The translations under genes were made by a program, and so were the position numbers. The notes beneath the pieces are model-generated. The model was not told the origin of the DNA. It made no database searches and saw only the letters and a program-made list of their open reading frames with translations. From the NCBI GenBank assembly GCA_037783545.1, contig JBBELK010000028.1:89434-153433 (forward strand): a DNA stretch of 64,000 bases, written 5' to 3'. The stretch comes from Henricia sp. BOLD:AAB3569. Lineage: Eukaryota; Echinodermata; Asteroidea; Spinulosida; Echinasteridae. Below are positions 23,401 through 50,000 of this stretch, one piece after another. The stretch's first letter is position 1. The number at the start of each line of letters is the position of its first letter.

Positions 23401-24862
23401 AGTTGGTTGAAAAATTCCTTGATTTCCAAATTTGCCGGCATTTGGGACACACTTTGACCTAATTCCCGTCACAATCTGGGGTGAGTCAACGGCCGTACAG
23501 ATGTACAGCAGCGCATGCGCAGCGCAGGGTGTCCCAACAGCCACGGTTAGGGGAATAACCACGTAGCCGAGCTCCGCTTTCCCTAAACTCTGAAATTTCT
23601 CCGTCATTTCCCAGCGAAAATCTGTCAATTTTGCATGACAAGTGCGGAATATATACAGTTTGGAGCATGCCAAATTTGAAGTTGGTTGGAAAATTCCTTG
23701 ATTTCCAAATTTGCCGGTATTTGGGACACACTTTGACCTAATTCCCGTCACAATCTGGGGTGAGTCAACGGCCGTACAAATGTACACCAGCGCAGCGCAG
23801 GGTGTCCCAACAGCCACGGTTAGGGGAATAACCACGTAGCCGAGCTCCGCTTTCCCTAAACTCTGAAATTTCTCCGTCATTTCCCAGCGAAAATCTGTCA
23901 ATTTTGCATGACAAGTGCGGAATATATACAGTTTGGAGCATGCAAAATTTGAAGTTGGTTGGAAAATTCCTTGATTTCCAAATTTGCCGGCATTTGGGAC
24001 ACACTTTGACCTAATTCCCGTCACAATCTGGGGTGAGTCAACGGCCGTACAAATGTACACCAGCGCATGCGCAGCGCAGGGTGTCCCAACAGCCACGGTT
24101 AGGGGAATAACCACGTAGCCGAGCTCCGCTTTCCCTAAACTCTGAAATTTCTCCGTCATTTCCCAGCGAAAATCTGTCAATTTTGCATGACAAGTGCGGA
24201 ATATATACAGTTTGGAGCATGCACAATTTGAAGTTGGTTGAAAAATTCCTTGATTTCCAAATTTGCCGGCATTTGGGACACACTTTGACCTAATTCCCGT
24301 CACAATCTGGGGTGAGTCAACGGCCGTACAAATGTACACCAGCGCAGCGCAGGGTGTACCAACAGCCACGGTTAGGGGAATAACCACGTAGCCGAGCTCC
24401 GCTTTCCCTAAACTCTGAAATGTCTCCGTCATTTCCCAGCGAAAATCTGTCAATTTTGCATGACAAGTGCGGAATATATACAGTTTGGAGCATGCAAAAT
24501 TTGAAGTTGGTTGGAAAATTCCTTGATTTCCAAATTTGCCGACATTTGGGACACACTTTGACCTAATTCCCGTCACAATCTGGGGTGAGTCAACGGCCGT
24601 ACAAATGTACACAAGCGCAGCGCAGGGTGTCCCAACAGCCACGGTTAGGGGAATAACCACGTAGCCGAGCTCCGCTTTCCCTAAACTCTGACATTTCTCC
24701 GTCATTTCCCAGCGAAAATCTGTCAATTTTGCATGACAAGTGCGGAATATATACAGTTTGGAGCATGCAAAATTTGAAGTTGGTTGGAAAATTCCTTGAT
24801 TTCCAAATTTGCCGGCATTTGAGACACACTTTGACCTAATTCCCGTCACAATCTGGGGTGAG

Positions 24863-29700: not shown

Positions 29701-32700
29701 TTTGGAGCATGCAAAATTTGAAGTTGGTTGGAAAATTCCTTGATTTCCAAATTTGCCGGCATTTGGGACACACTTTGACCTAATTCCCGTCACAATCTGG
29801 GGTGAGTCAACGGCCGTACAAATGTACACCAGCGCATGCGCAGCGCAGGGTGTCCCAACAGCCACGGTTATGGGAATAACCACGTAGCCGAGCTCCGCTT
29901 TCCCTAAACTCTGAAATTTCTCCGTCATTTCCCAGCGAAAATCTGTCAATTTTGCATGACAAGTGCGGAATATATACAGTTTGGAGCATGCAAAATTTGA
30001 AGTTGGTTGGAAAATTCCTTGATTTCCAAATTTGCCGGCATTTGGGACACACTTTGACCTAATTCCCGTCACAATCTGGGGTGAGTCAACGGCCGTACAA
30101 ATGTACACCAGCGCAGCGCAGGGTGTCCCAACAGCCACGGTTAGGGGAATAACCACGTAGCCGAGCTCCGCTTTCCCTAAACTCTGAAATTTCTCCGTCA
30201 TTTCCCAGCGAAAATCTGTCAATTTTGCATGACAAGTGCGGAATATATACAGTTTGGAGCATGCAAAATTTGAAGTTGGTTGGAAAATTCCTTGATTTCC
30301 AAATTTGCCGGCATTTGGGACACACTTTGACCTAATTCCCGTCACAATCTGGGGTGAGTCAACGGCCGTACAAATGTACACCAGCGCATGCGCAGCGCAG
30401 GGTGTCCCAACAGCCACGGTTATGGGAATAACCACGTAGCCGAGCTCCGCTTTCCCTAAACTCTGAAATTTCTCCGTCATTTCCCAGCGAAAATCTGTCA
30501 ATTTTGCATGACAAGTGCGGAATATATACAGTTTGGAGCATGCAAAATTTGAAGTTGGTTGGAAAATTCCTTGATTTCCAAATTTGCCGGCATTTGGGAC
30601 ACACTTTGACCTAATTCCCGTCACAATCTGGGGTGAGTCAACGGCCGTACAAATGTACACCAGCGCAGCGCAGGGTGTCCCAACAGCCACGATTAGGGGA
30701 ATAACCACGTAGCCGAGCTCTGTTTTCCCTAAACTCTGAAATTTCTCCGTCATTTCCCAGCGAAAATCTGTCAATTTTGCATGACAAGTGCGGAATATAT
30801 ACAGTTTGGAGCATGCAACATTTGAAGTTGGTTGAAAAATTCCTTGATTTCCAAATTTGCCGGCATTTGGGACACACTTTGACCTAATTCCCGTCACAAT
30901 CTGGGGTGAGTCAACGGCCGTACAAATGTACACCAGCGCAGCGCAGGGTGTCCCAACAGCCACGGTTAGGGGAATAACCACGTAGCCGAGCTCCGCTTTC
31001 CCTAAACTCTGAAATTTCTCCGTCATTTCCAAGCGAAAATCTGTCAATTTTGCATGACAAGTGCGGAATATATACAGTTTGGAGCATGCAAAATTTGAAG
31101 TTGGTTGGAAAATTCCTTGATTTCCAAATTTGCCGGCATTTGGGACACACTTTGACCTAATTCCCGTCACAATCTGGGGTGAGTCAACGGCCGTACAGAT
31201 GTACACCAGCGCATGCGCAGCGCAGGGTGTCCCAACAGCCACGGTTAGGGGAATAACCACGTAGCCGAGCTCCGCTTTCCCTAAACTCTGAAATTTCTCC
31301 GTCATTTCCCAGCGAAAATCTGTCAATTTTGCATGACAAGTGCGGAATATATACAGTTTGGAGCATGCAAAATTTGAAGTTGGTTGGAAAATTCCTTGAT
31401 TTCCAAATTTGCCGGCATTTGGGACACACTTTGACCTAATTCCTGTCACAATCTGGGGTGAGTCAACGGCCGTACAAATGTACACCAGCGCAGCGCAGGG
31501 TGTCCCAGCAGCCACGGTTAGGGCAATAACCACGTAGCCGAGCTCCGCTTTCCCTAAACTCTGAAATTTCTCCGTCATTTCCCAGCGAAAATCTGTCAAT
31601 TTTGCATGACAAGTGCGGAATATATACAGTTTGGAGCATGCAAAATTTGAAGTTGGTTGGAAAATTCCTTGATTTCCAAATTTGCCGGCATTTGGGACAC
31701 ACTTTGACCTAATTCCCGTCACAATCTGGGGTGAGTCAACGGCCGTACAAATGTACACCAGCGCATGCGCAGCGCAGGGTGTCCCAACAGCCACGGTTAG
31801 GGGAATAACCACGTAGCCGAGCTCCGCTTTCCCTAAACTCTGAAATTTCTCCGTCATTTCCCAGCGAAAATCTGTCAATTTTGCATGACAAGTGCGGAAT
31901 ATATACAGTTTGGAGCATGCAAAATTTGAAGTTGGTTAGAAAATTCCTTGATTTCCAAATTTGCCGGCATTTGGGACACACTTTGACCTAATTCCCGTCA
32001 CAATCTGGGGTGAGTCAACGGCCGTACAAATGTACACCAGCGCAGCGCAGGGTGTCCCAACAGCCACGGTTAGGGGAATAACCACGTAGCCGAGCTCCGC
32101 TTTCCCTAAACTCTGACATTTCTCCGTCATTTCCCAGCGAAAATCTGTCAATTTTGCATGACAAGTGCGGAATATATACAGTTTGGAGCATGCAAAATTT
32201 GAAGTTGGTTGGAAAATTCCTTGATTTCCAAATTTGCCGGCATTTGGGACACACTTTGACCTAATTCCCGTCACAATCTGGGGTGAGTCAACGGCCGTAC
32301 AAATGTACACCAGCGCATGCGCAGCGCAGGGTGTCCCAACAGCCACGGTTATGGGAATAACCACGTAGCCGAGCTCCGCTTTCCCTAAACTCTATAATTT
32401 CTCCGTCATTTCCCAGCGAAAATCTGTCAATTTTGCATGACAAGTGCGGAATATATACAGTTTGGAGCATGCAAAATTTGAAGTTGGTTAGAAAATTCCT
32501 TGATTTCCAAATTTGCCGGCATTTGGGACACACTTTGACCTAATTCCCGTCACAATCTGGGGTGAGTCAACGGCCGTACAAATGTACACCAGCGCAGCGC
32601 AGGGTGTCCCAACAGCCACGGTTAGGGGAATAACCACGTAGCCGAGCTCCGCTTTCCCTAAACTCTGAAATTTCTCCGTCATTTCCCAGCGAAAATCTGT

Positions 32701-33397
32701 CAATTTTGCATGACAAGTGCGGAATATATACAGTTTGGAGCATGCAAAATTTGAAGTTGGTTGGAAAATTCCTTGATTTCCAAATTTGCCGGCATTTGGG
32801 ACACACTTTGACCTAATTCCCGTCACAATCTGGGGTGAGTCAACGGCCGTACAAATGTACACCAGCGCATGCGCAGCGCAGGGTGTCCCAACAGCCACGG
32901 TTATGGGAATAACCACGTAGCCGAGCTCCGCTTTCCCTAAACTCTGAAATTTCTCCGTCATTTCCCAGCGAAAATCTGTCAATTTTGCATGACAAGTGCG
33001 GAATATATACAGTTTGGAGCATGCAAAATTTGAAGTTGGTTGGAAAATTCCTTGATTTCCAAATTTGCCGGCATTTGGGACATACTTTGACCTAATTCCC
33101 GTCACAATCTGGGGTGAGTCAACGGCCGTACAAATGTACACCAGCGCATGCGCAGCGCAGGGTGTCCCAACAGCCACGGTTATGGGAATAACCACGTAGC
33201 CGAGCTCCGCTTTCCCTAAACTCTGAAATTTCTCCGTCATTTCCCAGCGAAAATCTGTCAATTTTGCATGACAAGTGCGGAATATATACAGTTTGGAGCA
33301 TGCAAAATTTGAAGTTGGTTGGAAAATTCCTTGATTTCCAAATTTGCCGGCATTTGGGACACACTTTGACCTAATTCCCGTCACAATCTGGGGTGAG

Positions 33398-35059
33398 TCA
33401 ACGGCCGTACAAATGTACACCAGCGCAGCGCAGTGTGTCCCAATAGCCACGGTTAGGGGAATAACCATGTAGCCGAGCTCCGCTTTCCCTAAACTCTGAA
33501 ATTTCTCCGTCATTTCCCAGCGAAAATCTGTCAATTTTGCATGACAAGTGCGGAATATATACAGTTTGGAGCATGCAAAATTTGAAGTTGGTTGGAAAAT
33601 TCCTTGATTTCCAAATTTGCCGGCATTTGGGACACACTTTGACCTAATTCCCGTCACAATCTGGGGTGAGTCAACGGCCGTACAAATGTACACCAGCGCA
33701 TGCGCAGCGCAGGGTGTCCCAACAGCCACGGTTATGGGAATAACCACGTAGCCGAGCTCCGCTTTCCCTAAACTCTGAAATTTCTCCGTCATTTCCCAGC
33801 GAAAATCTGTCAATTTTGCATGACAAGTGCGGAATATATACAGTTTGGAGCATGCAAAATTTGAAGTTGGTTGGAAAATTCCTTGATTTCCAAATTTGCC
33901 GGCATTTGGGACACACTTTGACCTAATTCCCGTCACAATCTGGGGTGAGTCAACGGCCGTACAAATGTACACCAGCGCATGCGCAGCGCAGGGTGTCCCA
34001 ACAGCCACGGTTATGGGAATAACCACGTAGCCGAGCTCCGCTTTCCCTAAACTCTGAAATTTCTCCGTCATTTCCCAGCGAAAATCTGTCAATTTTGCAT
34101 GACAAGTGCGGAATATATACAGTTTGGAGCATGCAAAATTTGAAGTTGGTTGGAAAATTCCTTGATTTCCAAATTTGCCGGCATTTGGGACACACTTTGA
34201 CCTAATTCCCGTCACAATCTGGGGTGAGTCAACGGCCGTACAAATGTACACCAGCGCAGCGCAGTGTGTCCCAATAGCCACGGTTAGGGGAATAACCATG
34301 TAGCCGAGCTCCGCTTTCCCTAAACTCTGAAATTTCTCCGTCATTTCCCAGCGAAAATCTGTCAATTTTGCATGACAAGTGCGGAATATATACAGTTTGG
34401 AGCATGCAAAATTTGAAGTTGGTTGGAAAATTCCTTGATTTCCAAATTTGCCGGCATTTGGGACACACTTTGACCTAATTCCCGTCACAATCTGGGGTGA
34501 GTCAACGGCCGTACAAATGTACACCAGCGCATGCGCAGCGCAGGGTGTCCCAACAGCCACGGTTATGGGAATAACCACGTAGCCGAGCTCCGCTTTCCCT
34601 AAACTCTGACATTTCTCCGTCATTTCCCAGCGAAAATCTGTCAATTTTGCATGACAAGTGCGGAATATATACAGTTTGGAGCATGCAAAATTTGAAGTTG
34701 GTTGGAAAATTCCTTGATTTCCAAATTTGCCGGCATTTGGGACACACTTTGACCTAATTCCCGTCACAATCTGGGGTGAGTCAACGGCCGTACAAATGTA
34801 CACCAGCGCATGCGCAGCGCAGGGTGTCCCAACAGCCACGGTTATGGGAATAACCACGTAGCCGAGCTCCGCTTTCCCTAAACTCTGAAATTTCTCCGTC
34901 ATTTCCCAGCGAAAATCTGTCAATTTTGCATGACAAGTGCGGAATATATACAGTTTGGAGCATGCAAAATTTGAAGTTGGTTGGAAAATTCCTTGATTTC
35001 CAAATTTGCCGGCATTTGGGACACACTTTGACCTAATTCCCGTCACAATCTGGGGTGAG
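33398..35059. repeat. 3-monomer higher-order repeat, 831 bp, two tandem copies
   Basis: Copies are 33398-34228 and 34229-35059, each 273+279+279. The first monomer of each has the linked private changes GCAGTGTGTCCCAATAGCC and ACCATGTAG. The two long monomers carry TTATGGGAATAACC. The copies differ at the second monomer (GAAATTT against GACATTT near 34609). Confidence 0.9.
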
Positions 35060-38000
35060 TCAACGGCCGTACAAATGTACACCAGCGCAGCGCAGGGTGT
35101 CCCAACAGCCACGGTTAGGGGAATAACCACGTAGCCGAGCTCCGCTTTCCGTAAACTCTGAAATTTCTCCGTCATTTCTTAGCGAAAATATGTCAATTTT
35201 GCATGACAAGTGCGGAATATATACAGTTTGGAGCATGCAAAATTTGAAGTTGGTTGGAAAATTCCTCGATTTCCAAATTTGCCGGCATTTGGGACACACT
35301 TTGACCTAATTCCCGTCACAATCTGGGGTGAGTCAACGGCCGTACAAATGTACACCAGCGCAGCGCAGGGTGTCCCAACAGCCACGGTTAGGGGAATAAC
35401 CACGTAGCCGAGCTCCGCTTTCCCTAAACTCTGAAATTTCTCCGTCATTTCCCAGCGAAAATCTGTCAATTTGGCATGACAAGTGCGGAATATATACAGT
35501 TTGGAGCATGCAAAATTTGAAGTTGGTTGGAAAATTCCTTGATTTCCAAATTTGCCGGCATTTGGGACACACTTTGACCTAATTCCCGTCACAATCTGGG
35601 GTGAGTCAACGGCCGTACAAATGTACACCAGCGCATGCGCAGCGCAGGGTGTCCCAACAGCCACGGTTAGGGGAATAACCACGTAGCCGAGCTCCGCTTT
35701 CCCTAAACTCTGAAATTTCTCCATCATTTCCCAGCGAAAATCTGTCAATTTTGCATGACAAGTGCGGAATATATACAGTTTGGAGCATGCAAAATTTGAA
35801 GTTGGTTGGAAAATTCCTTGATTTCCAAATTTGCCGGCATTTGGGACACACTTTGACCTAATTCCCGTCACAATCTGGGGTGAGTCAACGGCCGTACAAA
35901 TGTACACCAGCGCAGCGCAGGGTGTCCCAACAGCCACGGTTAGGGGAATAACCACGTAGCCGAGCTCCGCTTTCCCTAAACTCTGAAATTTCTCCGTCAT
36001 TTCCCAGCGAAAATCTGTCAATTTTGCATGACAAGTGCGGAATATATACAGTTTGGAGCATGCAAAATTTGAAGTTGGTTGGAAAATTCCTTGATTTCCA
36101 AATTTGCCGGCATTTGGGACACACTTTGACCTAATTCCCGTCACAATCTGGGGTGAGTCAACGGCCGTACAAATGTACACCAGCGCATGCGCAGCGCAGG
36201 GTGTCCCAACAGCCACGGTTATGGGAATAACCACGTAGCCGAGCTCCGCTTTCCCTAAACTCTGAAATTTCTCCGTCATTTCCCAGCGAAAATCTGTCAA
36301 TTTTGCATGACAAGTGCGGAATATATACAGTTTGGAGCATGCAAAATTTGAAGTTGGTTGGAAAATTCCTTGATTTCCAAATTTGCCGGCATTTGGGACA
36401 CACTTTGACCTAATTCCCGTCACAATCTGGGGTGAGTCAACGGCCGTACAAATGTACACCAGCGCATGCGCAGCGCAGGGTGTCCCAACAGCCACGGTTA
36501 TGGGAATAACCACGTAGCCGAGCTCCGCTTTCCCTAAACTCTGAAATTTCTCCGTCATTTCCCAGCGAAAATCTGTCAATTTTGCATGACAAGTGCGGAA
36601 TATATACAGTTTGGAGCATGCAAAATTTGAAGTTGGTTGGAAAATTCCTTGATTTCCAAATTTGCCGGCATTTGGGACACACTTTGACCTAATTCCCGTC
36701 ACAATCTGGGGTGAGTCAACGGCCGTACAAATGTACACAAGCGCAGCGCAGGGTGTCCCAACAGCCACGGTTAGGGGAATAACCACGTAGCCGAGCTCCG
36801 CTTTCCCTAAACTCTGAAATTTCTCCGTCATTTCCCAGCGAAAATCTGTCAATTTTGCATGACAAGTGCGGAATATATACAGTTTGGAGCATGCAAAATT
36901 TGAAGTTGGTTGGAAAATTCCTTGATTTCCAAATTTGCCGGCATTTGGGACACACTTTGACCTAATTCCCGTCACAATCTGGGGTGAGTCAACGGCCGTA
37001 CAAATGTACACCAGCGCATGCGCAGCGCAGGGTGTCCCAACAGCCACGGTTATGGGAATAACCACGTAGCCGAGCTCCGCTTTCCCTAAACTCTGAAATT
37101 TCTCCGTCATTTCCCAGCGAAAATCTGTCAATTTTGCATGACAAGTGCGGAATATATACAGTTTGGAGCATGCAAAATTTGAAGTTGGTTGGAAAATTCC
37201 TTGATTTCCAAATTTGCCGGCATTTGGGACACACTTTGACCTAATTCCCGTCACAATCTGGGGTGAGTCAACGGCCGTACAAATGTACACCAGCGCATGC
37301 GCAGCGCAGGGTGTCCCAACAGCCACGGTTATGGGAATAACCACGTAGCCGAGCTCCGCTTTCCCTAAACTCTGAAATTTCTCCGTCATTTCCCAGCGAA
37401 AATCTGTCAATTTTGCATGACAAGTGCGGAATATATACAGTTTGGAGCATGCAAAATTTGAAGTTGGTTGGAAAATTCCTTGATTTCCAAATTTGCCGGC
37501 ATTTGGGACACACTTTGACCTAATTCCCGTCACAATCTGGGGTGAGTCAACGGCCGTACAAATGTACACAAGCGCAGCGCAGGGTGTCCCAACAGCCACG
37601 GTTAGGGGAATAACCACGTAGCCGAGCTCCGATTTCCCTAAACTCTGAAATTTCTCCGTCATTTCCCAGCGAAAATCTGTCAATTTTGCATGACAAGTGC
37701 GGAATATATACAGTTTGGAGCATGCGAAATTTGAAGTTGGTTGGAAAATTCCTTGATTTCCAAATTTGCCGGCATTTGGGACACACTTTGACCTAATTCC
37801 CGTCACAATCTGGGGTGAGTCAACGGCCGTACAAATGTACACCAGCGCAGCGCAGGGTGTCCCAACAGCCACGGTTAGGGGAATAACAACGTAGCCGAGC
37901 TCCGCTTTCCCTAAACTCTGAAATTTCTCCGTCATTTCCCAGCGAAAATCTGTCAATTTTGCATGACAAGTGCGGAATATATACAGTTTGGAGCATGCAA

Positions 38001-38638
38001 AATTTGAAGTTGGTTGGAAAATTCCTTGATTTCCAAATTTGCCGGCATTTGGGACACACTTTGACCTAATTCCCGTCACAATCTGGGGTGAGTCAACGGC
38101 CGTACAAATGTACACCAGCGCAGCGCAGGGTGTCCCAACAGCCACGGTTAGGGGAATAACCACGTAGCCGAGCTCCGCTTTCCCTAAACTCTGAAATTTC
38201 TCCGTCATTTCCCAGCGAAAATCTGTCAATTTTGCATGACAAGTGCGGAATATATACAGTTTGGAGCATGCAAAATTTGAAGTTGGTTGGAAAATTCCTT
38301 GATTTCCAAATTTGCCGGCATTTGGGACACACTTTGACCTAATTCCCGTCACAATCTGGGGTGAGTCAACGGCCGTACAAATGTACACAAGCGCAGCGCA
38401 GGGTGTCCCAACAGCCACGGTTAGGGGAATAACCACGTAGCCGAGCTCCGCTTTCCCTAAACTCTGAAATTTCTCCGTCATTTCTTAGCGAAAATATGTC
38501 AATTTTGCATGACAAGTGCGGAATATATACAGTTTGGAGCATGCAAAATTTGAAGTTGGTTGGAAAATTCCTCGATTTCCAAATTTGCCGGCATTTGGGA
38601 CACACTTTGACCTAATTCCCGTCACAATCTGGGGTGAG
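35060..38638. repeat. 12-monomer periodicity marked by TTCTTAGCG
   Basis: The monomers starting at 35060 and 38366 share a cluster of private changes: TTCTTAGCGAAAATATGTC and CCTCGATTTCC. They lie 3306 bp apart (12 monomers, five of them 279 bp). A related monomer with TTCTTAGCG and CCTCGATTTCC, but AAATCTGTC, starts at 28715, 6345 bp upstream (23 monomers). The cluster is therefore a landmark of a third higher-order family that occupies 28.7-40 kb. Intervening monomers match only partly, so I call this a periodicity rather than a clean tandem HOR. Confidence 0.7.
36158..37819. repeat. 3-monomer higher-order repeat, 831 bp, second pair
   Basis: Copies are 36158-36988 and 36989-37819, each 279+279+273. 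The two long units have TTATGGG and the short one has CACAAGC with TTAGGGG. The third monomer of the second copy has private changes (GAGCTCCGATTTCC near 37627, GCATGCGAAAT near 37722). It is the same tri-monomer theme as at 33.4-35.1 kb, without the CAATAGCC marks. Confidence 0.85.
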
Positions 38639-40084
38639 TCAACGGCCGTACAAATGTACACCAGCCCAGCGCAGGGTGTCCCAACAGCCACGGTTAGGGG
38701 AATAACCACGTAGCCGAGCTCCGCTTTCCCTAAACTCTGAAATTTCTCCGTCATTTCCCAGCGAAAATCTGTCAATTTTGCATGACAAGTGCGGAATATA
38801 TACAGTTTGGAGCATGCAAAATTTGAAGTTGGTTGGAAAATTCCTTGATTTCCAAATTTGCCGGCATTTGGGACACACTTTGACCTAATTCCCGTCACAA
38901 TCTGGGGTGAGTCAACGGCCGTACAAATGTACACCAGCGCATGCGCAGCGCAGGGTGTCCCAACAGCCACGGTTAGGGGAATAACCACGTAGCCGAGCTC
39001 CGCTTTCCCTAAACTCTGAAATTTCTCCGTCATTTCCCAGCGAAAATCTGTCAATTTTGCATGACAAGTGCGGAATATATACAGTTTGGAGCATGCAAAA
39101 TTTGAAGTTGGTTGGAAAATTCCTTGATTTCCAAATTTGCCGGCATTTGGGACACACTTTGACCTAATTCCCGTCACAATCTGGGGTGAGTCAACGGCCG
39201 TACAAATGTACACAAGCGCAGCGCAGGGTGTCCCAACAGCCACGGTTAGGGGAATAACCACGTAGCCGAGCTCCGCTTTCCCTAAACTCTGAAATTTCTC
39301 CTTATTTCCCAGCGAAAATCTGTCAATTTTGCATGACAAGTGCGGAATATATACAGTTTGGAGCATGCGAAATTTGAAGTTGGTTGGAAAATTCCTTGAT
39401 TTCAAAATTTGCCGGCATTTGGGACACACTTTGACCTAATTCCCGTCACAATCTGGGGTGAGTCAACGGCCGTACAAATGTACACCAGCGCAGCGCAGGG
39501 TGTCCCAACAGCCACGGTTAGGGGAATAACCACGTAGCCGAGCTCCGCTTTCCCTAAACTCTGAAATTTCTCCGTCATTTCCCAGCGAAAATCTGTCAAT
39601 TTTGCATGACAAGTGCGGAATATATACAGTTTGGAGCATGCACAATTTGAAGTTGGTTGGAAAATTCCTTGATTTCCAAATTTGCCGGCATTTGGGACAC
39701 ACTTTGACCTAATTCCCGTCACAATCTGGGGTGAGTCAACGGCCGTACAAATGTACACAAGCGCAGCGCAGGGTGTCCCAACAGCCACGGTTAGGGGAAT
39801 AACCACGTAGCCGAGCTCCGCTTTCCCTAAACTCTGAAATTTCTCCGTCATTTCCAAGCGAAAATCTGTCAATTTTGCATGACAAGTGCGGAATATATAC
39901 AGTTTGGAGCATGCAAAATTTGAAGTTGGTTGGAAAATTCCTTGATTTCCAAATTTGCCGGCATTTGGGACACACTTTGACCTAATTCCCGTCACAATCT
40001 GGGGTGAGTCAACGGCCGTACAAATGTACACAAGCGCAGCGCAGGGTGTCCCAACAGCCACGGTTAGGGGAATAACCACGTAGC

Positions 40085-40120
40085 CGAGCTCCTTCCAGGT
40101 CGTGTTTTACATCGAGCTCC
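40085..40120 (+). other. Left LINE-satellite junction with repeated CGAGCTCC
   Basis: Satellite sequence runs to CGAGCTCC at 40085-40092. Then 20 bp (40093-40112) match neither the satellite nor an evident LINE motif, and CGAGCTCC appears again at 40113-40120 before GGGAATCG. The true 5' end of the LINE could therefore be 40093 or about 40121, with the 20 bp being filler or a template-switch product. The right junction is at 47111-47114 (AAG then TTTCCCTAAAC). Confidence 0.6.
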
Positions 40121-40323
40121 GGGAATCGTAAGAAAACTTCGCTTTTGAGCGATTATGGTCACAAATTTTATATCATTGTGACCGACATTATACACTGATT
40201 CTGCTGGACCGCCCTCGAATTGTCAGGTTTAGTAATTTTGGTGTATTTTGTAGTTAAAATATTGTATATTTCTTAGGTTTATTGCTATGGCTGACCATTA
40301 AGGTCAGTCAAGCGCAACCAGCC
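40093..40323 (+). promoter_or_regulatory. LINE 5' UTR and presumed internal promoter region
   Basis: The 231 bp between the satellite junction and the first in-frame ATG of ORF1 have no homology to the satellite, apart from an 8-bp CGAGCTCC at 40113-40120 that repeats the satellite edge at 40085-40092. A stem-loop, TCGCT-TTTG-AGCGA, lies at 40139-40152. The 3' part is AT-rich. LINE 5' UTRs usually hold an internal promoter, but no core element is recognisable here. Confidence 0.6.
40287..40301 (+). CDS. Four-codon upstream ORF in the LINE 5' UTR
   Basis: ATGGCTGACCATTAA encodes MADH and ends 22 bp before the ORF1 start at 40324, in a different reading frame. It is the nearest ATG upstream of ORF1, so scanning ribosomes would meet it first. 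A regulatory role is inference; very short upstream ORFs also arise by chance. Confidence 0.3.
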   Translation: MADH

Positions 40324-41964
40324 ATGCAGGGCCAGACAAGCAGTACCGCGTCTTGCTCTGCTGGCCCCATTGTTCCCGGTGACGAGCCCTTTCAAGGGGT
40401 CACCAGGAACAATGGAGTGTTTTTCCATGCGGTCGACAATGTCTCCGTTCAGGATTACATGAACTCCTTTGCAGACCAACTACCACAACAATCTATTGTC
40501 TCCGCGTCAAGGATTTCTAATGGCAGAATTGCTTTTTACTTAAGCTCGAGAACAGAAGTCATCGAGGCAGTCCACACAGGACTCGCCTACGATGGCGGCT
40601 TTATCGAGCTTACACCACTCAATCGCCCTACTACCCGGCTAACACTCTCAAACGTATACCCAGAAATCCCGAACGGAGTCATTGCGGCCCAACTATCATC
40701 CTTTTGCAAGGTGGTGTCGCAGATCCGTCCGATCCCCCTGGGAATTAAAAACAAGAAACAATTAAACATAATGAGCTTCCGACGACAGGTCCAGATCCTT
40801 CTTAATCCTAACATTAATCTCCCCGACCACATAAATTTTACATTTTCTGGAGCCAACTATCGTGTTTTCTTAACAACTGAGTCGGTTCGGTGTTTCCTCT
40901 GCCGGGAGTTCGGGCACGTAAGCAAAAACTGCAAGAAACACCCTTCCAACCCTGAAAATCAACCGGACCCCACCGTAGACAATCCTCTAAACCCACCACC
41001 CGTATTCATGCACGGAAAAAACAAAAAATCTGACCCCAAACACCCACCAAAATCGTCTAAACCCAACAATCCCATCTCTTCTGCCACCACCCCTCCCAAA
41101 GCACCTCCACCCAAACCTCCCCGCGCGGCTGCGCCCGCCCCCGGCCCGTCTAACCACCCTGGTAGGAAAGGCGGGTCGGCCCCGGCTTGTGCCTCGGGCG
41201 CGACCGGTGCTGCCAATTCTGGCGCACCGAACTCGTCGTCCGGCTCCGTGGCCGATGCGGGTGTAGCCCGCGGGGTCACAACCCCATCCCAACCCTCCTC
41301 CTCCAGTTCAACGACAAATGAGAATGCGACAAACTTCGGCTCTCCCCCTGCTCCTCACAGAACATTTTCTGAAGTCTTGACTAAACGCAAGAACCCCCCA
41401 CCCAAATCGCCCCCTGTTCCCTTCAAACTGACTCCCCTCAAATATACCTCTCCTGTTCACAAAATGGCTAAGACAGCCATGAGCCCTAGTTCGTCACAAT
41501 CTCCTTCTCTCTCCCAGGCCCTCGAGGCCCATACACCGGTTTCTTCACCCGCTCCTTCTCCTCGTGTGGCCAATGCCCCTCCCATTCCAGCACAACCCAC
41601 TCCAGTCCATCCTACTCTAGCCCCACCCACCTCAGCCCCACCCACTTCAGCTCCATCAATTACCCCTGTTCCCGCCCCACCCACCTCCGCCCCCTCCACT
41701 GACACTCCTGGTCCATCTGTTTCCTCTCCCATGCCTCTCTCACAGACTTCCGTACTTTCGACTCCCGGCGGTCAGAACACCGACACCGACTCTATGCAAT
41801 GGGAGGATACTCAGGCGGAAGATGATCTGACGTCTGATATCCTCCCTACATCCCGTGGCCCCCTGTCGTCGGAAGATCTCATAAAATTTCTTGTCTTGGT
41901 GAAGGGAAAAAAAAAACAGTCCAGTTTGCAAAGAAATTCACGTCTAACATCCCTGGACTGGTAA
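40324..41964 (+). CDS. LINE ORF1: gag-like nucleic-acid-binding protein with one CCHC zinc knuckle
   Basis: As read, the ORF is 546 aa from the first in-frame ATG (MQGQTSSTAS); the open frame begins 14 codons earlier with a TTG, which is unlikely to initiate. Residues about 30-185 are a compact region of alternating hydrophobic segments, as in the RRM-like part of Tx1/L1-type ORF1 proteins (inference, no fold search). One CCHC knuckle follows: C190, C193, H198, C203 (CX2CX4HX4C). From about residue 210 to 500 the chain is low-complexity, rich in Pro, Ser, Thr and Ala, with a short repeat (PPTSAPPTSAP) near 41620-41690. The family role is to bind LINE RNA and form the ribonucleoprotein with ORF2 protein. 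The printed C-terminus is probably wrong: after an A10 run at 41907-41916 the frame ends within 16 codons, while the frame reached by one added base continues to 42053. Confidence 0.85.
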   Translation: MQGQTSSTASCSAGPIVPGDEPFQGVTRNNGVFFHAVDNVSVQDYMNSFADQLPQQSIVSASRISNGRIAFYLSSRTEVIEAVHTGLAYDGGFIELTPLNRPTTRLTLSNVYPEIPNGVIAAQLSSFCKVVSQIRPIPLGIKNKKQLNIMSFRRQVQILLNPNINLPDHINFTFSGANYRVFLTTESVRCFLCREFGHVSKNCKKHPSNPENQPDPTVDNPLNPPPVFMHGKNKKSDPKHPPKSSKPNNPISSATTPPKAPPPKPPRAAAPAPGPSNHPGRKGGSAPACASGATGAANSGAPNSSSGSVADAGVARGVTTPSQPSSSSSTTNENATNFGSPPAPHRTFSEVLTKRKNPPPKSPPVPFKLTPLKYTSPVHKMAKTAMSPSSSQSPSLSQALEAHTPVSSPAPSPRVANAPPIPAQPTPVHPTLAPPTSAPPTSAPSITPVPAPPTSAPSTDTPGPSVSSPMPLSQTSVLSTPGGQNTDTDSMQWEDTQAEDDLTSDILPTSRGPLSSEDLIKFLVLVKGKKKQSSLQRNSRLTSLDW

Positions 41965-42053
41965 AACAACTCAAACCTCTAAAAAACTACGCCCCTATCG
42001 GTAAGCCCATGCAGAAGAGGATAGGTACACTCTTAAAATCTCTTGATCGTTAA
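41919..42053 (+). pseudogene. Displaced C-terminal segment of ORF1, out of frame after an A10 run
   Basis: In the +1-shifted frame, 44 codons follow the A10 run without a stop and end with TAA at 42051-42053. The peptide is basic and well-formed (begins VQFAKKFTSN, ends TLLKSLDR), unlike the read-through tail of ORF1. Including it would bring the ORF1 stop to 29 bp before the ORF2 ATG instead of 118 bp. The break lies exactly at the homopolymer, so a one-base consensus error, a true mutation, or slippage during expression are all possible. Confidence 0.7.
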
Positions 42054-42082
42054 TATCACTGTCTTTTCTCATTTCCTTTAAT

Positions 42083-45000
42083 ATGGAGGTTTCTTTGCGT
42101 GTGTTTTTGGCCTGCGTCATGACATTGTCATTGCTCACTCTTAACACGGGGGGATGCCTATCCCCCATAAAAAATACTGCTCTCAAAATTTTCACTGATA
42201 CCCTTGGTAATAGCCCTGATATTGTTTTCCTTCAAGAAACATATACTTTAAAAGAACAAAATTCGTGCTGGAACGTATGGTCCCACAGCCCCCACTGCTC
42301 TCCCGGGCCCACCCCCGGATCGGGAGTCACCACGCTCATAAAATCCAACAAAATTGATGTTCTCTCTCACTCTTCTATTTTCCCCGGTTATATTCATTAC
42401 ACTAAATTTAAATTTCAAGATACTGTTTTTCACCTCTACAATACTTTAATTCCACAAAATAACGATACTGCTCTTAAAGCCATTCAATCCTTTGTGGACC
42501 ATAGTTCCAGCTGCAGTGACAATGTCATAATAGGAGGTGATTTCAATTGTTGTCTTAATCCTCTTGTTGATCGTCTGCGTACGTCGGTTGAGCGTAGACC
42601 CAAAGTCGTCATGGCTCTCAGGGGCGCTGTAAATGCATTGTCCCTTTGTGATGCCTGGCGCAGACTGAATCCCAACAAACAAGAGTTCACCTGGTTTCAT
42701 AACTACCCAGCCTCTGTGCAGGGTGTTTATAAAGCCAGGTTAGATCGTGTTTACATTCCTTCCTCCTTATGCCCCTCGGTTAATTCTGTGTCTATTATTC
42801 CCTGTTCTCTCTCCGATCACAGTGCTGTCAGTATTGCGTTTACTTTCCCCTCTCGAATTCAAAGAGGGAGTGCTTACTGGCATTTTAATAACTCTCTCTT
42901 AGATGATGACAACTACAAAGACATTATAAACCACTTCTGGGCTGATTGGACAATGAAAAAAGGAGACTTTCCAGATCTAGCCTCGTGGTGGGACTTTGGA
43001 AAGTCCCACATAAAGTCCATCACCCAGATGTATAGCAGTAAAATCGCTCGCCAAAAACGTCAAACACTCTTTCAACTTAACAAAAAAATCAACGATCTTC
43101 AGTCTGCGCCAGACTTCACTCTAGAAATAAGAGACGCTCTTAAGGAGCATAGGGACAATTTAAATTTTCTGTTAAAGTGTGAAGCGGAAGGCGCTCTTGT
43201 CAGATCCCGCTTCAAATTCACTAATGAAACTGACACCTGCTCCACATTCTTCTTCAACTTGGAAAAAAACAACTCTGCTTCTAAACACATCTCTAGAATT
43301 CGTCTTGCCACTGGGCAAATCACCGATAATCCTAAAGAAATCAAAACCCATATCCATGACTTTTACCAGTCCCTCTACACTTCTACTCCAACAGACGAGA
43401 GCGCCCTCGGCGAACTGTTAATTGGATTAAATCAACTTGACCCTGCAGATTCAGAGGACCTCGAGCGCCCTCTATCTCTGCAGGAACTCGACCTCGCCGT
43501 CAGGGAACTTGGCAAAAACAAAACGCCCGGTCTTGACGGCCTCTCTTCAGAATTTTTTCAGTGCTTCTGGCCCACTCTCAAAAATGATTTTCTTGCCGTT
43601 CTCAACGCTTCTTTCTCCTCAGGTTCCCTTCCTCATTCCTTGAGACGTGCTGTCATCACCCTTTTGCCCAAGAAAGGTGATTTGGCCGATATTGCCAATT
43701 GGCGGCCCGTCTCCCTTTCAAACACTGACTACAAGATTTTTGCCAAGTTGCTTGCCGGCAGGTTAAAGCAATGCATTGGCAGCGTCGTCGGCCCGGACCA
43801 GACCTACTGTGTCCCGGGCCGATCAATACATGATAATTTAAATTTAATTCGGGATATTTTATTTTACTTTAATGCTAATGACTTGCCTTTAGCCGTGGTC
43901 AACCTTGATCAGAAGAAAGCCTTTGATAACGTTGACCACGGCTACTTGTTTAACACAATGAGGGCCATGGGCTTTGGGGATCGTTTCATCCGACACATCG
44001 ACATTTTGTACGGCAGCGCCGAGAGCCTTGTTAAGGTCGGTGGCTCCCTGACCTCTCCTTTCCCATTTGAGAAAGGAATAAGGCAGGGATGCCCGCTCTC
44101 GGGGCTGCTGTACTCAATCGCCATTGAACCACTCATCAATAAACTTAGACTAAAACTTTCTCCCTATTCGTTTCATATTCCTGATACAAACTCATCTGTC
44201 TCTGTGTCGGCGTACGCAGACGACGTGTCTCTCTTTATCACCTCCGACGCAGGCTTTAACGTTGCTGAAGAGGTATATGACCTCTTTAGCAGCGCCTCTT
44301 CTGCATGTCTCAATACCCGGAAGTCCCAGGGATTGTGGGTCGGATCATGGACCGGACGGAAAGACAATCCTCTGGGTTTTTCTTGGAACAGCGAAGGACT
44401 TGCCTTTCTTGGAGTTCACCTTGGGAACACAAATAACTACATAAAACAAAACTGGATTAAATGTAAAGAAAAACTTAACAAAACTCTTAATTCCTGGTTT
44501 CACCGTCTTTACTCTCTTTCTTTCAAAGGAAAAGTTTTAATTGCTAATCAACTTGCCGCTTCAAAAATCTTTCACTGCATTGCTGTTCTTTCTCCTCCAG
44601 ACAATGTTATCCGTGAACTCCAAGAAAGTCTTGTCAATTTCGTCTGGTCCCGCAAGCAGCACCACCTTAAAAAGGAACTTTTGTATCAAAAACCTGACAA
44701 TGGAGGGATGGGTCTGGCACGCCTCCAGGCACGCATTATGACATTTCGACTTCGCACTATACAACGTTTTCTCGACCTCTCCCCCCATCCCAGTTTCCTA
44801 CTCTTCCGCCATTTCTTAAGACAGTACAAGAAACTGGGTTATGATTTCCAACTTTTTCACTTCAACACTGATCCGAAATTCCACTCTCGCCTTCCCTGCT
44901 TCTACAGTGACATACTGCGTGCCTGGACGGCGTCCGGGGCTCGATTGGAAACGCGACCTGACAATATCAACCACGTCATTAATTTACCAATTGCTAGCCT

Positions 45001-45964
45001 ACTTAATGATGCAGCTGATGGTGACGCTATGCCTCCACTGCGGCTCAAAGCGTGCGGTATTCTTCTCGTCCGCCATCTCATCGACTTTAACACCGCTCTC
45101 TGGATTGACGCCCGGACCTTCCATTTCCCCCTCCAAGGACTCCGCCCACCCTCGCTTCGTCTTCTTGAACAAGATCTTCACCGTATTCATCTGTCACTAC
45201 TTCAGCACTTCCCAACTGTCTTCTGCGTTAATGGATGTCGTCTTCCCGTTTCTCAACTCTGCGCTCTCCCACCATTTCCGGACACTCCCGTCAATTTTGT
45301 CTTCTCTTCAATACAAAATGGACTCTCCGCACCATCCAAAGTCATCTACAATATCTTCAACACTTCGTCTTCTCCGTTATCTTCACACTGGCATGAAAAC
45401 GGCTTTCTGAATCCTGGAACTTCCATTCAATGGAAACAATTATATCACCTGCACTCAACAAAGAAAGAGGACGACGTACAGTTCAAGCTTTTTCACAACA
45501 TCCTTCCATCGCTTGCTGTACTAAGCCACATCATACCCGACAGATTTGCTTCCTGTGGATGGTGCGGAGAGCCGGGCTCAATCAAGCACCTATTCATCAC
45601 CTGCCCAGCAATCCAGCCAACCCTCACAACTCTTCATCAGATGCTAAGTCGCCTTCTTCCTTCTACACAACTGAACTTTGACCTCTACTGGGCCCTCATC
45701 CCGCACGCGAAGAGTCGCAGCAAGGAGACAGTTCGATTGTCGAATTCTCTCATCATCAGCTGCAAAAACACCATCTATTTTCTCTACCGTACTTCTCGCT
45801 TCGTCGACCCTCTCATCATCTGGAAACACAATCTCAAATTCAAAATTCTCATAAATTTCTCATTTTACAAATCAATCAACAATCTCCCTCGTTTTCACCA
45901 AAAATGGTCAATTAACAACGCAATCTTTGAATACAACAACGGTATGATGACGTGGTTGATATAA
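42083..45964 (+). CDS. LINE ORF2: endonuclease-reverse transcriptase polyprotein, Tx1-like
   Basis: The ORF is intact, 1293 aa; ATG at 42083 is the first in frame, and Met13 (42119), next to the conserved LLTLNTGG, is an alternative start. The N-terminal apurinic-type endonuclease spans about residues 14-255: N21, E52 (FLQET), D153 and N155 (GGDFN), the RLDRVYIP segment, and D245-H246 (SDHSAV) match the catalytic positions of LINE endonucleases. The reverse transcriptase lies at about 480-790: NWRPVSLSNTDYKIFAK, D609 in NLDQKKAFD, the RQGCPLSGLLYS block, and Y711-A-D713-D714 (YADD). A C-terminal finger has C1158, C1161, H1169, C1174 (CX2CX7HX4C). There is no RNase H domain, as is normal for this group. 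The protein nicks the target and copies the LINE RNA by target-primed reverse transcription. All key residues are present, so the enzyme may be active. Confidence 0.95.
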   Translation: MEVSLRVFLACVMTLSLLTLNTGGCLSPIKNTALKIFTDTLGNSPDIVFLQETYTLKEQNSCWNVWSHSPHCSPGPTPGSGVTTLIKSNKIDVLSHSSIFPGYIHYTKFKFQDTVFHLYNTLIPQNNDTALKAIQSFVDHSSSCSDNVIIGGDFNCCLNPLVDRLRTSVERRPKVVMALRGAVNALSLCDAWRRLNPNKQEFTWFHNYPASVQGVYKARLDRVYIPSSLCPSVNSVSIIPCSLSDHSAVSIAFTFPSRIQRGSAYWHFNNSLLDDDNYKDIINHFWADWTMKKGDFPDLASWWDFGKSHIKSITQMYSSKIARQKRQTLFQLNKKINDLQSAPDFTLEIRDALKEHRDNLNFLLKCEAEGALVRSRFKFTNETDTCSTFFFNLEKNNSASKHISRIRLATGQITDNPKEIKTHIHDFYQSLYTSTPTDESALGELLIGLNQLDPADSEDLERPLSLQELDLAVRELGKNKTPGLDGLSSEFFQCFWPTLKNDFLAVLNASFSSGSLPHSLRRAVITLLPKKGDLADIANWRPVSLSNTDYKIFAKLLAGRLKQCIGSVVGPDQTYCVPGRSIHDNLNLIRDILFYFNANDLPLAVVNLDQKKAFDNVDHGYLFNTMRAMGFGDRFIRHIDILYGSAESLVKVGGSLTSPFPFEKGIRQGCPLSGLLYSIAIEPLINKLRLKLSPYSFHIPDTNSSVSVSAYADDVSLFITSDAGFNVAEEVYDLFSSASSACLNTRKSQGLWVGSWTGRKDNPLGFSWNSEGLAFLGVHLGNTNNYIKQNWIKCKEKLNKTLNSWFHRLYSLSFKGKVLIANQLAASKIFHCIAVLSPPDNVIRELQESLVNFVWSRKQHHLKKELLYQKPDNGGMGLARLQARIMTFRLRTIQRFLDLSPHPSFLLFRHFLRQYKKLGYDFQLFHFNTDPKFHSRLPCFYSDILRAWTASGARLETRPDNINHVINLPIASLLNDAADGDAMPPLRLKACGILLVRHLIDFNTALWIDARTFHFPLQGLRPPSLRLLEQDLHRIHLSLLQHFPTVFCVNGCRLPVSQLCALPPFPDTPVNFVFSSIQNGLSAPSKVIYNIFNTSSSPLSSHWHENGFLNPGTSIQWKQLYHLHSTKKEDDVQFKLFHNILPSLAVLSHIIPDRFASCGWCGEPGSIKHLFITCPAIQPTLTTLHQMLSRLLPSTQLNFDLYWALIPHAKSRSKETVRLSNSLIISCKNTIYFLYRTSRFVDPLIIWKHNLKFKILINFSFYKSINNLPRFHQKWSINNAIFEYNNGMMTWLI

Positions 45965-46014
45965 CTTTCATATTTCCTTGTGACTCTTCTTCGGCTCGTC
46001 TCCCGGAGCGTTTG

Positions 46015-46459
46015 CTCGCTTTTAGCGAGACAGGCTTTATGCCACGCTTCCGGGTTTCGAGCCATTCTGTCTTTTTTTTCACTTTCCCCCCTTTTTTGTC
46101 CTGGGATTTTGCGTCGGCTCTCTTGCCCCTGGATCGGCTGCTCGACTTGTCGAGACATGGTGTATACCTCCGGTCTGGATGTGGGTTTGCTGGCGTAAAT
46201 CTTCTTGCTGGTGTCTAGATCGGCTGCTCGGCTTTTGTCGAGACATGGCAGTTGCCTCCGATCTGGGCACCGGCGTCCGCCCCAACCCCCGCTCTTTATT
46301 TTGTTTTGTTGTCTTTCTTTTTCTGTTGCGTCGGCTTGCCCGTCCCTAAATCGGCTGCTCGACTTGTCGAGACGTGGCGTATGCCTCCGGTATGGGGGCG
46401 GGCTTGCTGACGTAAATCTCCTTGCTAGTGTCCGGATCGGCTGCTCGGCTTTTGTCGAG
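46015..46459 (+). ncRNA. Series of five related stem-loops in the LINE 3' UTR
   Basis: Stems are read directly from the + strand. Loop 1 is CTCGC-TTTTA-GCGAG at 46015-46029. Loop 2 is CTCGAC-TT-GTCGAG at 46141-46154. Loop 3 is CTCGGC-TTTT-GTCGAG at 46227-46242, with a G-U pair. Loop 4 is like loop 2, at 46358-46371. Loop 5 is like loop 3, at 46444-46459. The variation keeps pairing (A-U to G-U) while loop length changes between two types. Some LINEs (for example the UnaL2 type) use a 3' stem-loop for recognition by their reverse transcriptase, so a role in template recognition is a reasonable inference. These lie about 650-1100 bp from the end, further upstream than in those families. Confidence 0.6.
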
Positions 46460-46490
46460 ACATGGCGTAGCCTCCGATCCGGGCATTGGT
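46133..46490 (+). repeat. Tandem repeat in the LINE 3' UTR, unit about 217 bp with two half-units
   Basis: The core ATCGGCTGCTCG(A/G)C...GTCGAGAC(A/G)TGG occurs at 46133, 46219, 46350 and 46436. Spacings are 86, 131 and 86 bp, so a 217-bp unit containing two halves is present twice, the second unit truncated after its second half. Flanking words also repeat (CCTCCGGTCTGG / CCTCCGGTATGG, CTTGCTGGTGTCTAG / CTTGCTAGTGTCCGG, TTGCGTCGGCT). Tandem repeats in LINE UTRs are known in several families. Confidence 0.85.
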
Positions 46491-47085
46491 GATCCCCTCT
46501 CAGTCTTCACTCATGTTTCTCTTCTGTATTCTTTCTTATTGTTTTTGTCTCATCCAATCTAAGTGACAACAACACGTCCCTCATCCTACCCCCGTGGACG
46601 GAGGTCGCCACTTGCAGGCGCATTGCGCCCGCATGCTGTGGTTGGCGACCCCTGGCCTTCCCCACCCATTCCTCTCCGGATGGGTACCCCCCTTTTTTTT
46701 TCTTCTTCTCTCCTTCCTTCTCTGTGTTGTTGTCAAGAATGTATCGTTTTTTTTCTTCTTTGTAAGTGGAGCGCCACTTGTGTATGTTTAAATACGCCTT
46801 TGTTTCATGATTTAACATGTATTATGAACTATTTTGTTTTGTTGATCAGTTATTTTCTTATTTGTTTAAAAGTATATTCAAGTAACATAGTTTCCTATTT
46901 ACTATCCCTAATGAGACCTACAATGTGTTCAACTTATTATGTTACTTTACTAAATACCAAATCAATGATTTTGTTCGCTAATATATCTATGTACTTATTT
47001 TTGACTTAGATTTTGCATCTTTGTGTTAATATTATGTTTTCGTTTTTTACTTTGTAAATATTATTGTTATCATTACTGAAGATGC

Positions 47086-47091
47086 AATAAA
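47086..47091 (+). terminator. AATAAA polyadenylation signal of the LINE
   Basis: AATAAA lies 22 bp before the end of the element, the usual spacing for cleavage and polyadenylation. The element ends TTTTGAAAAGTTAAG and then satellite resumes. No A-tail is preserved, so either the tail was lost at insertion or the RNA ended without one. Confidence 0.65.
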
Positions 47092-50000
47092 GATGTCCTT
47101 TTGAAAAGTTAAGTTTCCCTAAACTCTGAAATTTCTCCGTCATTTCCAAGCGAAAATCTGTCAATTTTGCATGACAAGTGCGGAATATATACAGTTTGGA
47201 GCATGCAAAATTTGAAGTTGGTTGGAAAATTCCTTGATTTCCAAATTTGCCGGCATTTGGGACACACTTTGACCTAATTCCCGTCACAATCTGGGGTGAG
47301 TCAACGGCCGTACAAATGTACACCAGCGCAGCGCAGGGTGTCCCAACAACCACGGTTAGGGGAATAACCACGTAGCCGAGCTCCGCTTTCCCTAAACTCT
47401 GAAATTTCTCCGTCATTTCCCAGCGAAAATCTGTCAATTTTGCATGACAAGTGCGGAATATATACAGTTTGGAGCATGCAAAATTTGAAGTTGGTTGGAA
47501 AATTCCTTGATTTCCAAATTTGCCGGCATTTGGGACACACTTTGACCTAATTCCCGTCACAATCTGGGGTGAGTCAACGGCCGTACAAATGTACACAAGC
47601 GCAGCGCTGGGTGTCCCAACAGCCACGGTTAGGGGAATAACCACGTAGCCGAGCTCCGCTTTCCCTAAACTCTGAAATTTCTCCGTCATTTCCCAGCGAA
47701 AATCTGTCAATTTTGCATGACAAGTGCGGAATATATACAGTTTGGAGCATGCAAAATTTGAAGTTGGTTGGAAAATTCCTTGATTTCCAAATTTGCCGGC
47801 ATTTGGGACACACTTTGACCTAATTCCCGTCACAATCTGGGGTGAGTCAACGGCCGTACAAATGTACACCAGCGCAGCGCAGGGTGTCCCAACAGCCACG
47901 GTTAGGGGAATAACCACGTAGCCGAGCTCCGCTTTCCCTAAACTCTGAAATTTCTCCGTCATTTCCCAGCGAAAATCTGTCAATTTTGCATGACAAGTGC
48001 GGAATATATACAGTTTGGAGCATGCAAAATTTGAAGTTGGTTGGAAAATTCCTTGATTTCCAAATTTGCCGGCATTTGGGACACACTTTGACCTAATTCC
48101 CGTCACAATCTGGGGCGAGTCAACGGCCGTACAAATGTACACAAGCGCAGCGCAGGGTGTCCCAACGGCCACGGTTAGGGGAATAACCACGTAGCCGAGC
48201 TCCGTTTTCCCTAAACTCTGAAATTTCTCCGTCATTTCCAAGCGAAAATCTGTCAATTTTGCATGACAAGTTCAGAATATATACAGTTTGGAGCATGCAA
48301 AATTTGAAGTTGGTTGGAAAATTCCTTGATTTCCAAATTTGCCGGCATTTGGGACACACTTTGACCTAATTCCCGTCACAATCTGGGGTGAGTCAACGGC
48401 CGTACAAATGTACACCAGCGCAGCGCAGGGTGTCCCAACAGCCACGGTTAGGGGAATAACCACGTAGCCGAGCTCCGCTTTCCCTAAACTCTGAAATTTC
48501 TCCGTCATTTCCAGCGAAAATCTGTCAATTTTGCATGACAAGTGCGGAATATATACAGTTTGGAGCATGCAAAATTTGAAGTTGGTTGGAAAATTCCTTG
48601 ATTTCCAAATTTGCCGGCATTTGGGACACACTTTGACCTAATTCCCGTCACAATCTGGGGTGAGTCAACGGCCGTACAAATGTACACCAGCGCAGCGCAG
48701 GGTGTCCCAACAGCCACGGTTAGGGGAATAACAACGTAGCCGAGCTCCGCTTTCCCTAAACTCTGAAATTTTTCCGTCATTTCCCAGCGAAAATCTGTCA
48801 ATTTTGCATGACAAGTGCGGAATATATACAGTTTGGAGCATGCAAAATTTGAAGTTGGTTGGAAAAATTCCTTGATTTCCAAATTTGCCGGCATTTGGGA
48901 CACACTTTGACCTAATTCCCGTCACAATCTGGGGTGAGTCAACGGCCGTACAAATGTACACAAGCGCAGCGCAGGGTGTCCCAACAGCCACGGTTAGGGG
49001 AATAACCACGTAGCCGAGCTCCGCTTTCCCTAAACTCTGAAATTTCTCCGTCATTTCCCAGCGAAATTCCGTCAATTTTGCATGACAAGTGCGGAATATA
49101 TACAGTTTGGAGCATGCAAAATTTGAAGTTGGTTGGAAAATTCCTTGATTTCCAAATTTACCGGCATTTGGGACACACTTTGACCTAATTCCCGTCACAA
49201 TCTGGGGTGAGTCAACGGCCGTACAAATGTACACCAGCGCAGCGCAGGGTGTCCCAACAGCCACGATTAGGTGAATAACCACGTAGCCGAGCTCCGCTTT
49301 CCCTAAACTCTGAAATTTCTCCGTCATTTCACAGCGAAAATCTGTCAATTTTGCATGACAAGTGCGGAATATATACAGTTTGGAGCATGCAAAATTTGAA
49401 GTTGGTTGGAAAATTCCTTGATTTCCAAATTTGCCGGCATTTGGGACACACTTTGACCTAATTCCCGTCACAATCTGGGGTGAGTCAACGGCCGTACAAA
49501 TGTACACAAGCGCAGCGCAGGGTGTCCCAACAACCACGGTTAGGGGAATAACCACGTAGCCGAGCTCCGCTTTCCCTAAACTCTGAAATTTCTCCGTCAT
49601 TTCCCAGCGAAAATCTGTCAATTTTGCATGACAAGTGCGGAATATATACAGTTTGGAGCATGCAAAATTTGAAGTTGGTTGGAAAATTCCTTGATTTCCA
49701 AATTTGCCGGCATTTGGGACACACTTTGACCTAATTCCCGTCACAATCTGGGGTGAGTCAACGGCCGTACAAATGTACACAAGCGCAGCGCTGGGTGTCC
49801 CAACAGCCACGGTTAGGGGAATAACCACGTAGCCGAGCTCCGCTTTCCCTAAACTCTGAAATTTCTCCGTCATTTCCCAGCGAAAATCTGTCAATTTTGC
49901 ATGACAAGTGCGGAATATATACAGTTTGGAGCATGCAAAATTTGAAGTTGGTTGGAAAATTCCTTGATTTCCAAATTTGCCGGCATTTGGGACACACTTT

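Follow-up and report, generated by a model that had tools for sequence, protein, structure and literature searches.

A site-selective LINE of the sea star Henricia sp. that appears to use several tandem arrays, a 7SL RNA-tRNA array most of all

The window analysed here is a stretch of 64,000 nucleotides at the end of a contig (C28:89434-153433) in the 740.7 Mb assembly (2,104 contigs) of Henricia sp. BOLD:AAB3569, and its features are collected in Table 1. Mitochondrial sequence in the genome, in which some 360 bp separate cox1 from cox2 and a run of reversed tRNA genes precedes cox1, fits the gene order of sea stars, and matches to metazoan 7SL and vault RNA are also present. Between GAGCTCC, which ends at 40092, and TTTCCC, which starts at 47114, lie 7,021 bp of non-satellite DNA. 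The uninterrupted 273-bp monomer reads GAGCTCCGCTTTCCC at this point and occurs in that form 183 times in the window; by this comparison the insertion has lost GC and target duplication is absent, which confirms the description in the earlier note of a 7-kb LINE within a single 273-bp monomer, with about 2 bp lost and without duplication. On the minus strand of the window, the satellite has a period that is a multiple of three and one stop-free frame, giving open frames of up to 2,374 aa, which are probably due to chance.

Table 1. Features of the window (positions are those of the window; a slash marks a junction or cleavage position)
Feature	Position	Strand	Evidence
273-bp satellite array, left flank	1..40092		TRF period 273, 145.8 copies, 97% matches
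5' junction GAGCTCC/TTCCAGG	40086..40099	+	sequence; 5' ends of 14 copies
APE-type LINE, full-length copy, 7,021 bp	40093..47113	+	sequence, domain matches, 18 close genome copies
ORF1, 546 aa, possible CCHC zinc knuckle	40324..41964	+	ORF list; Pfam zf-CCHC
ORF2, open	42083..45964	+	ORF list, domain and structure-relative matches
APE-like endonuclease domain of ORF2	42134..42820	+	Exo_endo_phos E 2.8e-11; aligned with human L1 EN
Reverse transcriptase domain of ORF2	43667..44422	+	RVT_1 E 3.7e-31
3' UTR with direct repeat of 141 nt (two copies, 86% alike, 217 nt apart)	46109..46466	+	sequence
3' end GAAAAGTTAAG followed by TTTCCC, junction AAG/TTTCCC; target core CCGC/T	47103..47119	+	sequence, copy junctions
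273-bp satellite array, right flank, up to contig end	47114..64000		TRF 61.7 copies, 96% matches

The LINE, putatively of Tx1 type, carries in ORF2 both the APE endonuclease and the reverse transcriptase that elements of the Tx1 clade require, and the closest relative of ORF2 among solved structures is human L1 ORF2p (E 4.2e-72). A CCHC zinc knuckle in ORF1 is a further feature of the clade; the zf-CCHC match in the window copy (E 0.0054, 17.2 bits) lies under the Pfam cut-off of 20.8, and ORF1 measures 574, 576, 535, 478 and 131 aa in five other fully read copies. The direct repeat in the 3' UTR carries palindromes resembling CTCGACTTGTCGAG. No conserved RNA structure was found at the 3' end of the element, the last 293 nt of which fold as shuffled sequences do (z 0.02).

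Copies elsewhere in the genome were identified from both ends of the element. A search with its last 613 bp gave 22 matches, all 22 of which were scored; once the split copies C1493 and C390 were merged and two matches set aside (a 139-bp fragment at 86% on C190 and one at 79% on C495), 18 close copies remained. From the first 1,008 bp, with 40 of 114 candidates scored, at least 15 copies at 97% identity or above were recovered, and 14 of these retain the 5' end. The six copies compared at full length differ by 0.2-2.6%, and the window LINE appears to be a member of a recently active, low-copy family. The 3' end is retained in 17 of the 18 copies (C376-376k has lost it), and 13 of these 17 lie at one position in each of four tandem arrays: five in an array of 7SL RNA and tRNA genes on contig C376 (304k, 311k, 337k, 409k and 694k), five in a 60-bp minisatellite on four contigs (C1493 twice, C124, C24 and C103), two in a 193/205-bp satellite (C1550 and C390, with one junction base differing at C390) and one, that of the window, in the 273-bp satellite. 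The 3' end of the copy on C764 lies in the 193-bp satellite at a different position from that used on C1550 and C390, and the remaining three (C376-436k, C190 and C788, whose end is irregular) lie in other DNA. At the 5' side, where 14 ends are available, a 24-mer that marks the 7SL site accounts for six, the minisatellite for five, the 273-bp satellite for two and sequence resembling the 193-bp satellite for one (C788); other copies start with TTCCAGG (minisatellite, C764) or AGG (7SL site). Insertion at a fixed position in repeated DNA, as in many though not all members of the Tx1 clade, is thus evident here. The family differs in this from L1-like elements without site preference, which insert mainly at dispersed, unrelated sites, and in its use of four different arrays it differs from elements of the R1, R2 or Keno type, each of which has a single target. 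The earlier note had raised the possibility of a family that uses the 273-bp satellite as its specific target; the fixed site in tandem repeats holds for the family as a whole, but DNA other than that satellite adjoins 16 of the 17 3' ends and 12 of the 14 5' ends, the kind of finding that the note itself named as refuting its idea.

The array on C376 has a unit of about 707 bp, and Rfam models identify metazoan 7SL (SRP) RNA and tRNA genes in the flanks of the LINE copies there. The 7SL genes are mostly full length, scoring 210-228 bits (one scores 132 and one is cut by the end of the locus), and 25 of the 26 best 7SL matches (out of 4,334 candidates) lie on this contig. A 7SL gene is found within 1.5 kb in four of the six 5' flanks (311k, 337k, 409k and 694k) and in all four 3' flanks scanned out of five such flanks; no 7SL match is present within 1.5 kb in the 5' flanks of 436k and 376k, both of which have the 24-mer site. 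The insertion point is about 75 bp past the 3' end of the 7SL gene, and the LINE is oriented opposite to it. In all four copies at this site that keep both flanks, CTTTGTGSCAACCCAA is present on either side, exactly in 311k, 337k and 694k and with one difference in 409k, which shows that about 16-17 bp of the target were duplicated. All 97 genomic occurrences of the target 24-mer are on C376 (311,867-713,181). Matches to 7SL, tRNA, vault RNA and the histone stem-loop share the region C376:302-713 kb with seven LINE copies.

The extent to which these sites are occupied differs greatly. Six of the 97 exact 24-mer sites border an inserted LINE on its left, while there are five LINEs against 1,053 exact sites in the minisatellite, a number which is an undercount because the arrays vary. 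The 193/205-bp and 273-bp satellites provide by far most of the exact sites and yet are rarely used, with two LINEs at the site against 34,380 exact sites in the former, and one certain LINE together with that on C764 (thus one or two) against 21,927 in the latter. From these counts, the 273-bp satellite is used some 700-1,400 times less per exact site than the 7SL array.

The C764 copy requires separate consideration (loci L043, L067 and L026), as it has the 273-bp satellite on its left and the 193-bp satellite on its right, and shares the left junction GAGCTCC/TTCCAGG with C28. In its 5' part there are only two mismatches to C28 in 2,467 columns (99.9% over about 2.5 kb), followed past element position ~2500 by ordinary divergence, such that the copy is a mosaic. 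Its left flank is 98.5% identical to that of C28 in register and 99.7% identical when shifted by one monomer. We have not accepted it as a second independent insertion in the 273-bp satellite given this near-identity; it is probably the same insertion as that on C28, which the flank fits, short of proof. It would represent either a recombination of two satellites through the LINE or an assembly chimera. The mosaic suggests that recombination also moves sequence.

A different kind of junction is seen on C1550 (62900-64110; L069 and L006), where the LINE is truncated at element position 4678, within ORF2, and is preceded by about 0.57 kb of 18S rRNA sequence from its 3' part (the Rfam matches span model positions 1176-1831, and the final one enters the LINE). 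The order is 193/205-bp satellite, about 0.63 kb of other DNA, 18S, LINE and again 193/205-bp satellite. The join has the appearance of a switch of template in the course of reverse transcription, and would thus be a trace of target-primed reverse transcription in this satellite. There is also a sister subfamily at 78-79% identity, with at least 25 copies among the matches listed. All 15 copies retrieved have a stretch of TTTC repeats within 80 bp of the 5' end, and five of them (L050, L053, L056, L058 and L060) directly follow the 3' end of another copy. In the 5' flanks of these copies (L046-L060) the TTTC stretches often lie inside a dispersed repeat, TATATCAGCCGTGCGCAGCACGCTGGTATATTG, and some of the LINEs stand in tandem with a further one.

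Comparison of the empty sites shows what the four targets have in common. They read GCGC/TCTTTG in the 7SL array, GCGC/TCCTTG in the minisatellite, TCGC/TATTTTG in the 193-bp satellite and CCGC/TTTCCC in the 273-bp satellite, and CGCT is common to all of them, placed exactly at the 3' junction. When positions and strands were drawn at random from these units, none of 200,000 draws had four or more consecutive invariant bases within 13 nt, and a run of three occurred at a frequency of 3.5e-5. Ten further CGCT positions within the four scanned units are unused, and none of them is followed by NYYY, a pattern that was taken post hoc from the four sites. CGCTNYYY is itself common, with 23 occurrences in 150,882 nt (both strands of 19 loci, including the LINE and mitochondrial DNA), and the core alone therefore cannot confine the copies to arrays. 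A short-word BLAST search with E up to 1 found no similarity among the array units, except that the 273-bp and 193-bp (L068) satellites have a weak likeness when opposite strands are compared (at best 90% over 20 bp, E 0.016); the four arrays are thus not all fully independent samples. This likeness hints at a remote shared origin of the two satellites. The outcome on the top strand varies, from a duplication at the 7SL site to the loss of 2 bp in the 273-bp satellite and about 16 bp missing, as judged by eye, in the minisatellite, and a single cleavage geometry does not cover all of the targets. In four of the five minisatellite copies (L033, L034, L037 and L040) the last 30 bp of the 5' flank contain TAGTGG where the array mostly has TAGGGG, a variant that may be 5' sequence brought along by the RNA.

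Target choice is not explained by changes in the endonuclease. Residues 1-256 of ORF2, which span this domain, are identical between the C28 copy in the 273-bp satellite and C376-311k at the 7SL site, and for this pair a separate endonuclease for each target is rejected. Over about 172 ORF2 residues available from the 5' loci, no difference separates C28, C764, the two C1493 copies and C376-311k, and the remaining 7SL copies and C788 differ by one to four residues; in C103, C124 and C24 the frame is broken or interrupted by a stop. C376-311k differs by 0.20% over 7 kb from the minisatellite copy on C103, but by 1.48% from C376-337k, which is at the 7SL site as well. In a tree of 13 copies and 2,374 columns, from which C24 was left out as it diverges beyond column 2100, C376-311k pairs with C103 (support 0.969), apart from the other 7SL copies.

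The flanks bear on how many separate insertions these copies represent. Over 300 bp, identity between the flanks of minisatellite copies is 83-88%, or 69-76% where C24 is one of the pair, whereas the elements themselves, C24 aside, are 0.08-0.48% apart, and this greater divergence of the flanks suggests that the copies are independent insertions. At the 7SL site the nearest 300 bp of flank agree at 93-95% among 409k, 337k and 311k, and at 62-65% between these and 694k; given the likeness of these near flanks, independence rests on those farther out, which over 1,400 bp are 58-76% alike among all four. The flanks of 436k and 376k are 99.6% identical, and these were counted as one event. Unless the 311k copy was made by conversion, the tree of the elements calls for two or more separate insertions at the 7SL site.

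We conclude, with a probability of roughly 0.7, that the window LINE is site-selective, with a short cleavage core and several tandem arrays as targets, among which the 7SL array is the most used; the fixed 3' junctions, the common CGCT, the identical endonuclease at different targets and the diverged flanks are observed and speak for it. The APE endonuclease would nick the bottom strand at a short core, corresponding to CGC/T on the top strand and followed by N-Y-Y-Y in the four used sites, CGCT(NYYY) being the putative recognition core. Insertion would then proceed by target-primed reverse transcription at one fixed position per array, in at least four tandem arrays, with the 7SL-tRNA array used most and the 60-bp minisatellite next. 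Some factor beyond the core, such as chromatin, copy number or selection, would gather the copies in arrays. The insertion in the window is most simply regarded as an occasional insertion where a very abundant satellite offers a matching site. Only one insertion event is certain in this satellite, and four of the 17 3' ends (436k, C190, C788 and C764) do not fit the account given here. A more far-reaching version, to which we give somewhat less than even odds, is that one unchanged endonuclease has the 7SL/tRNA array as its home target and a graded series of secondary arrays with CGC/TNYYY, so that target switching would be in progress, with the satellite copies perhaps acting as homology bridges that join satellites, as on C764.

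Among the alternatives, it is rather unlikely that insertion is near-random at a short core and that mainly the copies in arrays survive selection. The core is indeed short and common, and both big satellites have low and similar occupancy, but seven of the 18 copies lie within 0.4 Mb of one contig, and the small differences among the six fully compared copies leave little time for loss. Direction by Pol III factors to 7SL and tRNA genes, comparable to the targeting of TRE5-A by host proteins as described in the available part of PMC3706591, with the satellite and minisatellite copies arising by other routes, would account for the 7SL array being the most occupied and for a site 75 bp past the 7SL gene. 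We regard it as quite unlikely, however, as the insertions are at a single nucleotide, without a spread of distances, the minisatellite copies have diverged flanks, and Rfam models detect neither 7SL nor tRNA at the one minisatellite locus scanned (L015), at two loci of the 193-bp satellite (L017 and L069/L006) or in the window. A third possibility, that a few founder insertions spread with their arrays through unequal crossing over and conversion between LINEs, is encouraged by the common flanks of 436k and 376k, the mosaic joining two satellites on C764 and the likeness of the nearest 300 bp at 409k, 337k and 311k. It is nevertheless distinctly improbable given that the 7SL and minisatellite units resemble neither one another nor the satellites, that flanks are more diverged than elements and that the lengths of the A-tail differ between copies. 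Finally, a family specific for the 273-bp satellite, with the copies elsewhere as strays, can hardly be right even though C28 and C764 share a junction, as C764 is probably not independent, and both the copy flanks and the one or two copies among so many exact sites reject it.

The several targets of this LINE are best viewed against other site-specific elements. Kojima and Fujiwara reportedly described target-specific LINEs of the Tx1 clade in 2004, namely Keno, Mutsu, Dewa, Kibi, Koshi and Tx1. Each of these families is known with a single target. The Henricia element resembles Tx1-clade LINEs in its APE endonuclease, L1-like reverse transcriptase and fixed sites in multicopy DNA, and its sister subfamily, with TTTC repeats before all 15 of the 5' ends retrieved, adds to the likeness. 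In the available parts of two accounts (PMC4640811, PMC3747384), the Tx1 group comprises target-specific APE elements of the L1 group, the named targets include RNA genes and microsatellites, and that of Keno is U2; as described there, each family has one target, whereas here near-identical elements occupy four arrays. The literature that we found on 7SL and on target-specific LINEs, in which subscription journals are mostly uncovered, contains no LINE that targets 7SL. Within the accessible portions of the sources, the case closest to a single family with two targets is that of the Dada DNA transposons (PMC8869645), related families of which reach several RNA genes by way of similar short targets (PMC8869645, PMC3706591), although, unlike this LINE, Dada elements use a DDE transposase, make 6-7 bp duplications and move without reverse transcription (PMC8869645, PMC3706591). 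R2 and its derivatives R8, R9 and R2NS combine strict bottom-strand with variable top-strand cleavage, as seems to be the case here, and the R2 clade also changes targets, but does so between families and not near-identical copies, according to the accessible sections of PMC5035012; R2 moreover uses a restriction-like endonuclease, by the portion available of PMC4640811, whereas this LINE has an APE enzyme. TRE5-A of Dictyostelium is likewise a non-LTR element found near Pol III genes, as is the LINE at 7SL, but in the excerpt of PMC3706591 it is placed near its target via host proteins and not at a single nucleotide.

These findings correct the account of the window LINE as satellite-specific and add a 7SL RNA gene array, absent from the literature that we found, to the targets of LINEs. 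Changes of target in site-specific LINEs are generally deduced from families of ancient divergence, whereas in Henricia near-identical copies are present in four arrays. As some of these copies have an identical endonuclease, the bases at their junctions suggest what the enzyme recognizes, and may predict further targets.
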